From NCBI RefSeq assembly GCF_013340205.1, contig NZ_BJTG01000003.1, positions 1-64,000 of the forward strand: a stretch of DNA of 64,000 nucleotides, read 5' to 3'. Made by a program: the position numbers and the translations under genes. How positions within the stretch are numbered: the stretch's first letter is position 1; every line of letters starts with the position of its first letter. The notes beneath the pieces are model-generated. The model was not told where the DNA came from, made no database searches, and saw only the letters and a list, made by a program, of their open reading frames with translations. Source of the stretch: Anaeromyxobacter diazotrophicus. GTDB lineage: Bacteria > Myxococcota > Myxococcia > Myxococcales > Anaeromyxobacteraceae. Below, one piece after another: positions 28,451 through 34,036 of this stretch.

Positions 28451-29143
28451 TCAGCCCGGCGGCAGCTCGGCCATGACCCGGGACACCACCCGGTCGCAGC
28501 GGGGCGCGAAGAAGGGGAACGCCAGCGCGGCGCCCCGCGCCACGTCGGCGGCGATGCCGCGGCGCAGCGCCAGCCGCGCGCGGTGCAGCCGGACGCGCAC
28601 CGTCTCCTCGGTCACGTCCAGCGCCTCGGCGGCCTCGGCGGTGGTGAGCTGATCCACGTCGCGCAGCATCACGACCGCGCGGTAGAGGGGGGGCAGGCGG
28701 TCGAGGCAGCGCTCGAGGTACCGCGCCGCCTCCCGCGAGGCGGCGTGCTCTTCGGGCGACTCGGGGGGCGGTGTCACGGTGTCCTCCGGCAGGTCCAGGT
28801 CCCCGATCGGCACGAGGTGCGTGGGGCGGCGCACGCGCCCGAGCGCCTCGTGCAGCGCGATGCGCGTGAGCCAGGTGGTGAACGAGGACGCCCCGGCGAA
28901 GTCCGCCAGGTGGGCGTAGGCGAGGAGGTACGTCTGCTGCATCGCGTCCTCCACCTCGGCCTCGTCGCGCAGGATGCCGCGGATGGCGTGGTAGACGCGC
29001 GGGTTGTGCCGCCGCATGAGCACCTCGAAGAGCGCGCGGTCGCCCGCCACCACCCTCCTCACCAGCTCGTCGTCCGCGAGCGCGCCCGCCCCCGCGGCTC
29101 GCCCCGCCTCGGCTCGGCCCACCCCGTGCGTCGCACCGTCCAT
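28451..29143 (-). CDS. ECF-type RNA polymerase sigma factor
   Basis: A 230-residue sigma-70 family protein. Region 2 covers ALFEVLMRRHNPRVYHAIRGIL and AEVEDAMQQTYLLAYAHL; region 4 covers LDRLPPLYRAVVMLRDVDQL and VTEETVRVRLHRARLALR. A C-terminal extension contains APRCDRVVSRVM, seen in some ECF groups. The ATG at 29143 has GGGGAGGAGG upstream. No anti-sigma gene is adjacent. It lies 99 bp upstream of the b561-like gene on the same strand and is divergent from a DoxX-like gene, so it may control either unit. Confidence 0.9.
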   Translation of the reverse strand: MDGATHGVGRAEAGRAAGAGALADDELVRRVVAGDRALFEVLMRRHNPRVYHAIRGILRDEAEVEDAMQQTYLLAYAHLADFAGASSFTTWLTRIALHEALGRVRRPTHLVPIGDLDLPEDTVTPPPESPEEHAASREAARYLERCLDRLPPLYRAVVMLRDVDQLTTAEAAEALDVTEETVRVRLHRARLALRRGIAADVARGAALAFPFFAPRCDRVVSRVMAELPPG

Positions 29144-29240
29144 GTGGCCTCCTCCCCCTTGGATGCGGCGGCGCCCGCCCCGTTTCACCCGTCACGCGGG
29201 GCGGGGCCCCGCCATCCGACGGGGCGGAAGGGAGAACTCG

Positions 29241-29889: not shown

Positions 29890-30393
29890 ATGCCAGGCGC
29901 GCGCGCGTCCAGCCACGAGGAGCGGGTGGTGCTCCTGTACCGGGAGTACGGGCCGGCCGTGTACCGCCGCTGCCTGCGGCTCTTGCGCGATCGCGAGGCC
30001 GCTCGCGACGCGACGCAGGAGGTCTTCGTGAAGCTCTTGCGCGACATGGGGAAGCTGGCCGCCCGCGACACGGCGCTGCCCTGGATCTACCGCGTCGCGA
30101 CGAACCACTGCCTGAACCTGCGGCGCGACGTGCGGCGCCGCGGCGAGCAGGGGGAGGATGCGCTCGACCTGGCGCCGGCCGCGGCGGCGCCGTACCCCGC
30201 GGGGCGGCTGGCGCGCGAGGTGCTGGCGCGGTTCGACGCCCAGACGCAGGCGGTGGCGGTGGGCGTGCTCGTGGACGGCCTGGAGCACGAGGAGCTGGCG
30301 AGCGCGCTCGGCATCTCGCGCCGGACCGTCCACCGCAAGCTGGCGCGCTTCCTCGAGGGCGCGCGGCAGCTCCTCGCGGGAGGCGAGCCGTGA
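29890..30393 (+). CDS. ECF-type RNA polymerase sigma factor (caspase cluster)
   Basis: A 167-residue sigma factor. Region 2 reads VVLLYREYGPAVYRRCLRLL and DATQEVFVKLLRDM; ALPWIYRVATNHCLNLRR follows. Region 4 contains HEELASALGISRRTVHRKLARFLEGA. The ATG at 29890 has GGACCGGGG before it. Its stop overlaps the GTG start of the following zinc-finger protein, so the two are almost certainly a sigma/anti-sigma pair. The presumed target is its own operon. Confidence 0.88.
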   Translation: MPGARASSHEERVVLLYREYGPAVYRRCLRLLRDREAARDATQEVFVKLLRDMGKLAARDTALPWIYRVATNHCLNLRRDVRRRGEQGEDALDLAPAAAAPYPAGRLAREVLARFDAQTQAVAVGVLVDGLEHEELASALGISRRTVHRKLARFLEGARQLLAGGEP

Positions 30394-31121
30394 GCCGCTG
30401 CCCGTCGGAGCTCGAGCTGGAGCAGCACCTCCTCGGCCCGGACGCCGAGGTCGAGGCGCACCTCGCGGGCTGCCCGCGCTGCCGGGCACGGCTCGCGGAG
30501 CTGGAGCAGGAGGGCGAGACCTTCCGGCGGGAGGTGTTCCCCGCCACCGTCGCGGCGGTGGTCGAGCGCTCCCGGCCGCGGGCCGTGGCCCGCCCCGGGC
30601 GCTGGCGGCTGCTGGTCGCGCCCCTCGCGGCGGCGGCGGCGGCGGCGGTCTTCCTGTGGGCGCGGCCGCCGCGCGACTACGTGGGCGCGAAGGGCGGCGC
30701 GCTCGAGCTCGCCGTATGGGTGCAGACGCCGGGGGGCGCGCGGGCGGCCCAGGACGGGGCGGCGGTGCCGGCGGCCGCCGACGTGCGCTTCCAGGTTCGC
30801 CCGCCGCGGGCCTGCCGGCTCTGGCTCGTCTCGGTGGACGCCGCGGGCCAGGTGTCGTGCCTCTTCCCGGCGGGCGGCGGCGCGGCGGCCGAGCTCCGCG
30901 CGCCGGCCACGCTCCCCGGCGGCGCCCACCTCGATGGGCGGGGCGGCCCGGAGCGCCTCTACGCGGTCTGCTCGCCCCGGCCGCTCCCCTACGGCGAGGT
31001 CGAGCGCGCGGTCCTCGCCGCCGCCGGCGGCGGGGAGGCGGCGGTGCGCGCGGCGGGCGCGCTCCCCGGGTTGCCCGAGGAGACGGCGCAGGCGACGCTG
31101 CTGCTCGAGAAGCGCCCGTGA
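30390..31121 (+). CDS. Zinc-finger anti-sigma-like membrane protein with DUF4384-type domain
   Basis: A 243-residue protein. Residues H24, C28 and C31 (HLAGCPRC) form the HxxxCxxC zinc motif of anti-sigma factors. One membrane span lies at about 72-90. The extracytoplasmic part (about 95-243) resembles DUF4384: GALELAVWVQTPGG, VRFQVRPPRACRLWLVSVDAAGQVSCLFPAG, and ERLYAVCSPRPL. It should hold the preceding sigma factor at the membrane and sense a periplasmic signal. Both ends overlap the neighbouring genes by four bases, indicating tight coupling in a three-gene set. Confidence 0.78.
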   Translation: MSRCPSELELEQHLLGPDAEVEAHLAGCPRCRARLAELEQEGETFRREVFPATVAAVVERSRPRAVARPGRWRLLVAPLAAAAAAAVFLWARPPRDYVGAKGGALELAVWVQTPGGARAAQDGAAVPAAADVRFQVRPPRACRLWLVSVDAAGQVSCLFPAGGGAAAELRAPATLPGGAHLDGRGGPERLYAVCSPRPLPYGEVERAVLAAAGGGEAAVRAAGALPGLPEETAQATLLLEKRP

Positions 31122-32635
31122 ACCGGCTCGCCGCCGCCGCCGCGCTCGCGCTGGCGCTCCTCGCGCCGGCCGCCGCGCGCGGCGCGCCGGCGCGGTACGC
31201 GGTGCTGGTGGGCTCGAACGCCGGCACCGCCGGCCGGCCGCGGCTCTGGTTCGCGGAGAAGGACGCGGAGCACTTCCGCGAGGCGCTCGTCGAGCTGGGC
31301 GACTTCCCCGCCGACCAGGTCGTGTTCCTGCGCGGCCCCCGCGCCGGCGAGCTGCGGGCGGCGCTGCGCGCGACGGAGGCGCGCCTCGCCGAGGCGCGGC
31401 GCACCGGGCAGCACACGCTGCTCGTCTTCTACTACTCCGGCCACGCGGGCGCGGGTGGGCTGGAGCTGGGGGACGAGCGCGTTTCCTTCGACGAGCTGCG
31501 CGCGCTCGTCGGCGGCGCCTCCGCCGACGCGAAGGTCGCCATCGTCGACGCCTGCGAGGCGGGCCTCCTGACCCAGGTGAAGGGCGCCACCGCCGCGCCC
31601 GCCCTCGACTTCCCGCTCCCGTCGGGCGAGAGCGTGCGCGGCACCGCCTTCGTGGCCTCGACCGCGGTCGGGGAGGCGGCGCAGGAGTCGGCCGCCATCG
31701 GGGGCAGCTTCTTCACCCACCACCTCGAGGTGGCGCTGCGCGGCGCCGGGGACGCCGACGGTGACGGGCTCGTCACGCTGGCGGAGGCGTTCCGCTACAC
31801 GGCCGCCCAGACGCTGGCCGGCACGCTCACCACGGCCGGCGGCGCCCAGCACGCCACCTACGAGATGAAGATGTCGGGGCGGGGCGACGTGGTGCTCTCC
31901 GACCTGCGCCGCGCCGACGCGCGGCTCACCCTCCCGCGCGACCCGGGCGCCGGCTACGTGGTGCGCGGGCCCATGTCGATCCTGGCCGAGGTGGCGGGCG
32001 GCGAGCGCCCGGTCACGCTCGCCCTGCCGGCCGGGAGCTACCGCGTCGAGCGCCGCGCGCCCGAGGGCCGGGCCGGCGCCGATCTCGTCCTCGAGCGCGG
32101 CGCGACGCTGCGCTTGCCGCCCCTGTCGCCCACGCGCTACGAGCTGGCCCGCGCGAAGGGCGGCCCGAAGCCCGGCCTGCTCTTCGCGGGCGCCGGCGTG
32201 AAGACGCTCGCGCTCTCCGGCTTCGGGCTCGCGCCGTCGTTCGAGGTGGGCGCCCGGAAGGAGCTCGGGCCCTTCGGCCTGCGCGTCCGCCTCGACTACC
32301 TCGGCAAGAGCGCGGACGACGCCGGGCTGCGCTACGACGCGTGGTACGTCGGGGCCGCGGTGGCGGGGCTCTACCCGCTCAACACCGGGCGCGTGTTGGT
32401 GGAGGCGGGGCCGGAGCTGGGGTTCGGCTACGCCTGGCAGCGGCTGGCGGTGAGCCGGAAGAGCTTCGACTCGGGCGTGCTCTCCCTCGGGGCGGCGGGC
32501 CTCATCACCGCGCCGCTCGGCCCCCTCCGCGTCGGCCTCGATCTCGGCCTCGGCGCCCAGGCGCTGCGGGTGAACGAGCGCCTCACGGCGCGCCCGGCCG
32601 CGTCGGTGGCGCTCCTCGCGCTGTGGGGCTTCTAG
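31118..32635 (+). CDS. Secreted caspase-family protein with C-terminal barrel-like domain
   Basis: A 505-residue protein starting at a GTG that overlaps the previous stop. A signal peptide covers residues 1-22. The caspase (C14) domain spans about 26-235, with catalytic His109 in FYYSGHAG and Cys146 in VDACEAG. A possible calcium loop, DADGDGLVT, is at 212-220. Residues 260-335 look like a beta-sandwich. From about 345 onward, alternating strands (FGLRVRLDYLG, WYVGAAVAGLYPL, VEAGPELGFGYAW) and a final aromatic (ALWGF) suggest an outer-membrane beta-barrel. Both catalytic residues are present, so an active periplasmic peptidase is plausible. No substrate is known. Confidence 0.82.
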   Translation: MNRLAAAAALALALLAPAAARGAPARYAVLVGSNAGTAGRPRLWFAEKDAEHFREALVELGDFPADQVVFLRGPRAGELRAALRATEARLAEARRTGQHTLLVFYYSGHAGAGGLELGDERVSFDELRALVGGASADAKVAIVDACEAGLLTQVKGATAAPALDFPLPSGESVRGTAFVASTAVGEAAQESAAIGGSFFTHHLEVALRGAGDADGDGLVTLAEAFRYTAAQTLAGTLTTAGGAQHATYEMKMSGRGDVVLSDLRRADARLTLPRDPGAGYVVRGPMSILAEVAGGERPVTLALPAGSYRVERRAPEGRAGADLVLERGATLRLPPLSPTRYELARAKGGPKPGLLFAGAGVKTLALSGFGLAPSFEVGARKELGPFGLRVRLDYLGKSADDAGLRYDAWYVGAAVAGLYPLNTGRVLVEAGPELGFGYAWQRLAVSRKSFDSGVLSLGAAGLITAPLGPLRVGLDLGLGAQALRVNERLTARPAASVALLALWGF

Positions 32636-32644
32636 GAGCCGGTC

Positions 32645-34036
32645 ATGACCTTCGCCCGCCGCGCCGCCCTCCTCGCCCTCGCCGCCGCCGCAGCCGCGTG
32701 GGCGCCGGCGTGCAGCGACACGCTCGTCGAGCACGGCGCCTCCCCCTCGCTCATCGCCTCGGCCTGCGGCGCCGGGCAGGTGAGCTGCGGCGGCGCCTGC
32801 GCCCCGGAGGACGCCGCGCACTGCGGGGGCGCCTGCGCGAGCTGCCCCGCCGCCGCGGACCCGCACGCGATCCCCGCCTGCCTCGCCCACGCCTGCGCGG
32901 TCGCCTGCGCCCCCGGCTGGCTGCGGAGCGGCGAGGCGTGCCGGCGCGCCACCGCCGTCGCCGCCGGGTTCGCGCACACCTGCGCGCTCCTCGAGGACGG
33001 CGCGGTCCGGTGCTGGGGCGCGAACGAGCACGGTCAGCTCGGCGACGGGACGGCCCAGGGCAGCGCCGTGCCGGTGGCGGTCGCGCTGCCCGGCCCGGCC
33101 TCCGCCCTGGCGGCCGGCTTCGTCCACGGCTGCGCGGTGCTGGCCCAGGACGGCGCGGTCTACTGCTGGGGCGACAACACCACCGGCGCGCTCGGCGACG
33201 GCACCCGCGTGCAGCGGCCGGCGCCGGTGCGGGTGCAGGGCCTGCCCGGGCCCGCGTCGCTGGTCGCGGCCGGAGGCGGCGAGACCGCGGCCCCCCCCTC
33301 GGCCACGTACTACGGCCACACCTGCGCCGCGGCGGGCGGGGGCGTGTGGTGCTGGGGGAGCGACGACTCCGGCCAGCTCGGGGACGGCGCCCAGGCCGAC
33401 CGCGCCGTCCCCGCGCCGGCCTCCGGGCTGGCGGCCGCCCCGTCGGCGCTCGCGGCCGGCGACCGGCACACCTGCGCGCTGGTGGGGGGCGGCGTCCTCT
33501 GCTGGGGCGCCGGAGGTTCCTTTCAGCTCGGCGACGGCGGGTCCTCCGACCAGCCGCGCCCGGTCGGGGTGGCGGGGCTGCCGCAAGGCACCACCGCGCT
33601 GGCGGCCGGGGCGGCCCACACCTGCGCGGTGGCGGCCGGCGCGCTCTACTGCTGGGGGGCGAACGCGTCCGGGCAGGTGAGCGGCGGCGACAGCGCGCTC
33701 GTGAGCGTCCCGCGTCCCGCCCCGGTCGCCTTGCCCGGGGTCGCGCCGGCGGCGGTCGCGGCGGGCGACCGGCACACCTGCGCGGTGGGCGCGGCCGGCG
33801 AGGTGGTGTGCTTCGGGGCCAACGACCAGTCGCAGCTCGCGGCGGCGCCCACGCCGCGCGGGCTCGTCACCGCGCCGGTGGCGCCGGCCCGCGCCGTGGC
33901 GGCGGGCTTCGATCACACCTGCGCGCTGCTCCAGGACGGCGGCGTCGCGTGCTGGGGCGCCGGGGACCGGGGCCAGCTCGGGGCGGGCGCGGCCGGCGGG
34001 GCGGTCGCCGCGCCGGCGCTCGTCTCCGGCGATTGA
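32645..34036 (+). CDS. RCC1-repeat lipoprotein, seven-bladed propeller
   Basis: A 463-residue lipoprotein with a signal peptide ending in the lipobox APAC (Cys23). A cysteine-rich segment (about 36-98) precedes seven RCC1 repeats of about 50 residues. Each repeat has the core AAG-x-HTCA...CWGAN..GQLGDG; the third repeat has an insertion and the sixth reads CFG. Seven repeats make a complete propeller. Paired cysteines in each blade could form disulfides, fitting an exported protein. It starts 9 bp after the caspase gene and probably belongs to the same transcript. Confidence 0.85.
   Translation: MTFARRAALLALAAAAAAWAPACSDTLVEHGASPSLIASACGAGQVSCGGACAPEDAAHCGGACASCPAAADPHAIPACLAHACAVACAPGWLRSGEACRRATAVAAGFAHTCALLEDGAVRCWGANEHGQLGDGTAQGSAVPVAVALPGPASALAAGFVHGCAVLAQDGAVYCWGDNTTGALGDGTRVQRPAPVRVQGLPGPASLVAAGGGETAAPPSATYYGHTCAAAGGGVWCWGSDDSGQLGDGAQADRAVPAPASGLAAAPSALAAGDRHTCALVGGGVLCWGAGGSFQLGDGGSSDQPRPVGVAGLPQGTTALAAGAAHTCAVAAGALYCWGANASGQVSGGDSALVSVPRPAPVALPGVAPAAVAAGDRHTCAVGAAGEVVCFGANDQSQLAAAPTPRGLVTAPVAPARAVAAGFDHTCALLQDGGVACWGAGDRGQLGAGAAGGAVAAPALVSGD

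Follow-up and report, generated by a model that had tools for sequence, protein, structure and literature searches.

An outer-membrane-tethered caspase as a candidate site-1 protease in an envelope-spanning ECF sigma factor module of Myxococcota

Why should a secreted caspase be encoded directly behind an ECF sigma factor and a membrane-bound anti-sigma factor? This question is raised by a locus in the window, the stretch of 64,000 nucleotides from Anaeromyxobacter diazotrophicus that we analysed. A preliminary description of the same DNA had proposed that an external cue frees the sigma factor and leads to induction of the caspase, a periplasmic protease, and that an RCC1 propeller lipoprotein belongs to the same unit. 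The sequence and its Pfam matches show that the four genes are real and lie where that description had placed them (Table 1). The four-base overlaps between the first three genes are both GTGA, at 30390-30393 (sigma/anti-sigma) and 31118-31121 (anti-sigma/caspase), and a gap of 9 bp separates the caspase stop codon (TAG, 32633-32635) from the RCC1 start codon (ATG, 32645). The first product is indeed a sigma factor of the ECF type, with a Sigma70_r2 match of 1.4e-13, small size, regions 2 and 4 only and an anti-sigma gene beside it, and its orthologues start at about the same position as the window copy. A second ECF-like sigma factor is encoded on the opposite strand (28451-29188, minus), with about 700 bp between it and the start of the module; its neighbours encode YceI-like and Rieske-like proteins, and it apparently has no relation to the caspase module.

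Table 1. Features of the caspase module, with positions in the window
Feature	Position	Strand	Evidence or conservation
ECF-type sigma factor, 167 aa, regions 2 and 4	29890..30393	+	Sigma70_r2 1.4e-13; TIGR02937 2.4e-17
Membrane anti-sigma factor, 243 aa: HxxxCxxC zinc domain, one TM helix, periplasmic DUF4384-like domain	30390..31121	+	
Anti-sigma zinc ligands H24, C28, C31	30459..30482	+	Invariant in HxxxCxxC-selected set, n=59
Anti-sigma K101-G102, first periplasmic linker past TM helix, proposed caspase cleavage site	30690..30695	+	
Secreted caspase of p20 type (orthocaspase) ending in an outer-membrane beta-barrel, 505 aa	31118..32635	+	Peptidase_C14 1e-7
Caspase signal peptide (approximate)	31118..31186	+	Hydrophobic N-terminus
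Caspase D49, predicted S1-pocket aspartate	31262..31264	+	D 157/160, E 3/160
Caspase catalytic H109	31442..31444	+	160/160
Caspase D144 (predicted S1 pocket) and catalytic C146 (DAC)	31547..31555	+	D 158/160, C 160/160
Caspase K155-G156, post-cysteine loop, possible self-processing site	31580..31585	+	K 143 or R 9 of 160; G156 158/160
Caspase EF-hand-like loop DADGDGLVTLAE	31751..31786	+	D212 155/160, D216 149/160, E223 153/160
Caspase eight-stranded beta-barrel, terminal Phe	32174..32632	+	Strands 353-504; matches NspA, OmpX, OmpW, OmpA
RCC1 propeller, seven repeats, probable lipoprotein, variable fourth gene	32645..34036	+	RCC1_2 3.4e-45

The caspase family is large, with a match in 131 of the 145 genomes of the order and up to 12 Peptidase_C14 genes per complete genome among those examined. 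For an order-level set we used the 75 loci with enough upstream sequence, which were picked from the match list and are not a random sample. In this set, a sigma factor gene lies upstream of the caspase gene in 68 loci and an HxxxCxxC membrane protein is encoded between the two in 59; we inspected most of the remaining loci, which have relatives of this protein without the zinc motif in that place. The same sigma-anti-sigma-caspase order was found through the phylum Myxococcota, where it is a recurrent three-gene core. A tblastn search against plasmids gave no match. The only other Peptidase_C14 gene of the genome (L092, G000:C2:622000-636000) is likewise preceded by a sigma-like gene and by one for an anti-sigma homologue.

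The RCC1 protein is the seven-bladed propeller that had been described, with RCC1_2 matching in seven stretches (3.4e-45) and matching this one protein only in the genome. In the window's clade its gene comes next after the caspase gene in all 13 loci. Co-occurrence elsewhere, which had been set as a test of the proposed unit, is seen; with the sigma factor upstream in 68 of 75 loci and a single RCC1_2 protein in the genome, the arrangement exceeds chance. Ten of these loci have all four genes, two (L070 and L073) are cut by contig ends and one (L062) consists of the caspase and RCC1 genes only. The lipobox is weak in the window copy (WAPAC) and clear in several orthologues. Elsewhere, outside this clade, the fourth gene encodes a beta-helix protein (L071), an Ig-like protein (L096) or a protein of an unknown family (L082, L089, L094, L098), and these products are often lipoprotein-like as well. 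Since different lipoprotein-like genes stand in this place in different clades, we take the core to be three genes and the fourth position to be a variable slot. Thus the proposed sigma-DUF4384-caspase-RCC1 set holds generally for its first three members, but RCC1 lies outside the general module. The folds that follow the caspase change (L071, L096, L082, L089, L094) as if the sensor part were exchangeable.

The third protein has a caspase fold, with a Peptidase_C14 match (1e-7) over the cut-off and an N-terminal domain that resembles MALT1 and caspase-7 in an AlphaFold2 model (VIA-align Z about 16-17, and 16.7 to MALT1); a PDB sequence search with the caspase gave no match. The model was built from four sequences (mean pLDDT 64.6) and its catalytic part is partly weak, with residues 147-266, which cover the active-site loop and the EF-like loop, modelled poorly. 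As for a p10 domain, Pfam gives C14 only, and a short all-beta domain and the barrel follow. The His/Cys dyad that had been read as intact (H109, C146) is invariant in all 160 linked homologues, and conservation of the catalytic residues, which had also been named as a test, is therefore borne out. D49 and D144 are predicted to correspond to the S1 aspartates of the family. Outside metazoans, caspase homologues use an acidic S1 pocket and cleave behind Arg or Lys (PMC5756287; PMC13304501; PMC7475262), and from the kept D49 and D144 we predict this specificity for the caspases of the module. The EF-hand-like loop (D212-x-D-x-D-G...E223) is a mixed case: its first Asp and its Glu are kept in 155 and 153 of the 160 homologues, respectively, but the Pfam EF-hand model does not score (E 0.27). 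This loop may be a structural Ca2+ site; MaOC1, one characterised orthocaspase, is Ca2+-independent (PMC7475262).

What had been called a barrel-like C-terminus is a confident eight-stranded outer-membrane barrel in the model. Residues 353-504 form eight long strands, with pLDDT block means mostly of 73-93, and resemble NspA (Z 16.1), OmpW and OmpA (VIA-align Z about 15-16), with OmpX matched too. Among 128 linked homologues with a complete C-terminus, a hydrophobic leader is found in 126, in agreement with the signal peptide noted earlier, a later TM helix is absent in 125, and the last residue is F, L, W, Y or I in 92. Most likely, the caspase resides in the periplasm on an outer-membrane tether, and the modelled barrel has its two ends on the periplasmic side.

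The protein encoded between the sigma factor and the caspase has the HxxxCxxC motif followed by a TM helix, as class I zinc anti-sigma factors do. Its zf-HC2 match (3.3e-4) falls just under the curated cut-off but recurs in diverged homologues. The DUF4384 assignment likewise recurs in homologues, but it scores 6e-5 and 23.5 bits against a cut-off of 27, and ten diverse homologues are also below the cut-off (up to 26.6); we therefore call the domain DUF4384-like only. In the AlphaFold2 model (mean pLDDT 79.6), helices at residues 7-61 and a TM helix at 77-87 are followed by a linker (78-102) with pLDDT <50, a prediction of disorder; the folded domain comes after it, with its first strand at 106.

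The end of this linker carries K101-G102, the strongest conserved site of the post-TM linker in an alignment of 59 linked anti-sigma factors selected for HxxxCxxC (58 Lys and 1 Arg, followed by Gly in 59/59). These residues are also among the seven invariant columns of a separate alignment of 33 sequences. Phylum-wide, Lys or Arg followed by Gly (K/R-G) stands at this column in 155 of 160 caspase-linked anti-sigma factors, where it is among the sites of highest information in proteins with a median pairwise identity of 24%. The zinc motif is missing in 30 of 159 caspase-linked homologues, and 29 of these 30 keep K/R-G. The five linked exceptions comprise M-G in L283, L292 and L300, a KG four residues off in L190, and L204, in which the anti-sigma gene has a large internal truncation and is probably degenerate. 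A lysine at position 101, on the periplasmic side, is contrary to the positive-inside rule. The second caspase locus of the same genome, 30% identical, has GEKG after its anti-sigma TM helix. In three further loci (L175, L197 and L198) the order is changed, with the caspase gene upstream of the anti-sigma gene, and the KG is still there. The peptide DYVGAKGGALEL is a candidate substrate for the caspase.

Activation of animal caspases involves a cut in the loop that follows the catalytic cysteine, and in the module's caspase K155-G156 of this loop may be an activating self-cleavage site. When we read the P1 residue of this loop by alignment for a contingency count, the pairs of caspase loop and anti-sigma factor were K/K in 133 cases, R/R in 13, K/R in 3 and R/K in 1, or 4 mismatched; an R in the loop is thus usually matched by an R in the anti-sigma factor. 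In L292, the caspase loop reads RPLG and the anti-sigma site WMG, so that the basic residue is gone from both while the dyad is kept, a possible joint change of specificity. The presence of the same K/R-G in both proteins also speaks for the main rival to cleavage, namely that the anti-sigma linker is a pseudosubstrate that sits in the active site and restrains or docks the protease; its invariance suits binding as well as cutting. However, site-1 cuts typically fall in flexible linkers near the membrane, and the anti-sigma gene accompanies a sigma factor in the loci examined, where a sigma switch without release would be purposeless. We consider such reverse control unlikely.

As a control, we compared 19 anti-sigma homologues that have no caspase match next to them: 8 lack an intact K/R-G and 11 have it, with some of these calls resting on short flanks. 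The eight losses are three Anaeromyxobacter proteins from which the DYVGxKGG segment is deleted (L170-L172), two short relatives and three with R-S. The 11 keepers could be served by a paralogous caspase elsewhere. In L176-L178, which keep K/R-G, the product of the next gene looks like a signal peptide and barrel without a caspase domain, and these loci are possible remnants of caspase loss. The 11 keepers also suit a structural reading, in which K/R-G is needed where the DUF4384 fold begins or the chain leaves the membrane, independently of any caspase. This is improbable: K/R-G is predicted, at low confidence, to lie outside the folded domain, the DUF4384 domain survives deletion of the segment in L170-L172, and L181 and L196 do without K/R-G too. 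Phylogenetically independent pairs changed in the same way for caspase presence and KG in 1-2 of 6 cases and in opposite ways in 0-1, and for the P1 switch 2 of 3 pairs were concordant and 0 opposite; neither comparison is significant because there are too few events. As a further control, 7 of 16 generic zinc-finger anti-sigma factors from the same genomes have some K/R-G within <=30 residues of the TM helix, scattered and never in the same context. Given this base rate, we dropped any K/R-G near the membrane as evidence, and only aligned invariance is informative.

On this evidence, we give a probability of about 0.5 to a transenvelope sigma switch in which the anti-sigma factor is cut at site 1 by its partner caspase. 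The cytoplasmic zinc domain of the anti-sigma factor would hold the sigma factor at the inner membrane and present the short disordered linker and the DUF4384-like domain to the periplasm, into which the caspase would be exported while its barrel tethers it to the outer membrane. An envelope or surface cue, possibly sensed by the barrel and the adjacent lipoprotein (here the RCC1 propeller), would activate the caspase, possibly through a cut by the caspase itself at the K/R-G of its post-cysteine loop. The activated caspase would cleave behind K101 of the anti-sigma factor, close to the membrane on its periplasmic side. Degradation would then be completed by a site-2 metalloprotease (RseP, for instance) together with cytoplasmic proteases, and the sigma factor would be freed. 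The genome encodes a Peptidase_M50 (RseP-like) protein with a strong match, a candidate suited to site 2. We infer the cleavage, its direction, the cue and the targets of the sigma factor. We favour this reading because the near-invariant K/R-G lies in a linker with predicted disorder, the caspase family cuts after K or R and the predicted S1 aspartates are kept; because K/R-G is partly lost where no caspase is adjacent, while L170-L172 keep DUF4384; and because the order of the module is conserved and the P1 residues of the two proteins mostly pair (K/K and R/R). Against it stand the 11 of 19 non-adjacent homologues that keep K/R-G and the three linked M-G copies. The outer-membrane tether also counts against it, since the caspase must reach the inner membrane or else act after release or before insertion.

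The alternative put forward in the preliminary description is that another protease or a ligand frees the sigma factor, which induces the caspase as a periplasmic effector of envelope stress, killing or self-lysis, with K/R-G serving another protease or folding. Co-transcription with the sigma factor suggests such induction, and PMC3501461 speculatively ties metacaspases to myxobacterial cell death, for or against which our results give no evidence. However, this model leaves unexplained the near-invariant K/R-G beside the caspase and its loss in several caspase-less lineages, and 120 non-redundant regions upstream of the sigma factor gene yielded no clear promoter motif in common. A possible TCCC/TGGCAC...GGTGT pattern spotted by eye in that position was not above shuffles, and we therefore do not claim autoregulation of the sigma factor. 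There is good support for an ECF module that signals across the envelope and includes a secreted caspase, but a caspase that is only an induced effector, which we consider unlikely, fits worse than upstream action on the anti-sigma factor.

The proposed site-1 cleavage has counterparts in known systems. Like DegS in the E. coli DegS-RseA-sigmaE pathway, the caspase would make a periplasmic site-1 cut in a membrane anti-sigma factor, with a site-2 protease next; DegS, in contrast, is a serine protease on the inner membrane, while the protease proposed here is a caspase tethered to the outer membrane. The order of sigma factor, membrane anti-sigma factor and outer-membrane barrel with a periplasmic N-terminal domain recalls FecI-FecR-FecA. 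FecA is a 22-strand TonB-dependent transporter that signals by contact, whereas the barrel of the module has 8 strands and carries a protease. In Craspase (Csx29-Csx30-CASP-sigma), a caspase-family protease also cuts the inhibitor of an ECF-like sigma factor, with the CHAT protease Csx29 cleaving Csx30 (PMC10028731), but that protease is cytoplasmic and RNA-activated through Cas7-11, there is no outer-membrane part, and the inhibitor is unrelated to zinc-finger membrane anti-sigma factors. No CRISPR gene was noticed near the caspase module. Caspase genes also lie near ECF sigma factor genes in the EACC1/EACC2 conflict systems, sometimes in the case of EACC2 (PMC8195603); these systems differ in their EACC domains, variable C-termini and TPR proteins. 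The model for EACC1-associated caspases (NCBIfam NF047832) was rejected for the module's caspase, with a score of 55.6 against a cut-off of 140 bits.

The statement that no described system with exactly this set was known needs revision, as the sigma-metacaspase pairing was published in 2012 for operons in Myxococcus, Anaeromyxobacter, Haliangium, Sorangium, Ralstonia and Fibrobacter (PMC3501461), but the envelope-spanning version appears to be undescribed. Those operons share taxa and the sigma-caspase pairing with the loci studied here and are very probably the same module; the accessible part of that paper names the sigma factors only, without an anti-sigma factor, a barrel, the K/R-G site, a lipoprotein slot or a mechanism. 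The literature that we searched describes neither the outer-membrane barrel nor the anti-sigma partner nor the K/R-G site; this search is incomplete and the novelty is provisional.

Little is known of the physiological substrates of bacterial caspases, and by 2017 one orthocaspase had been biochemically characterised (PMC5756287). The K/R-G site is a residue-level prediction for a large set of these proteins. At a little under even odds, we tentatively extend the site-1 reading to the outer-membrane-anchored caspases of Myxococcota as a large, multi-copy class of dedicated site-1 proteases, which would free ECF sigma factors via K/R-G and regulate transcription rather than kill. The site-1 model would suggest a role in signalling rather than in death for bacterial caspases, and it makes the long-standing question of caspase substrates directly testable with two purified proteins.
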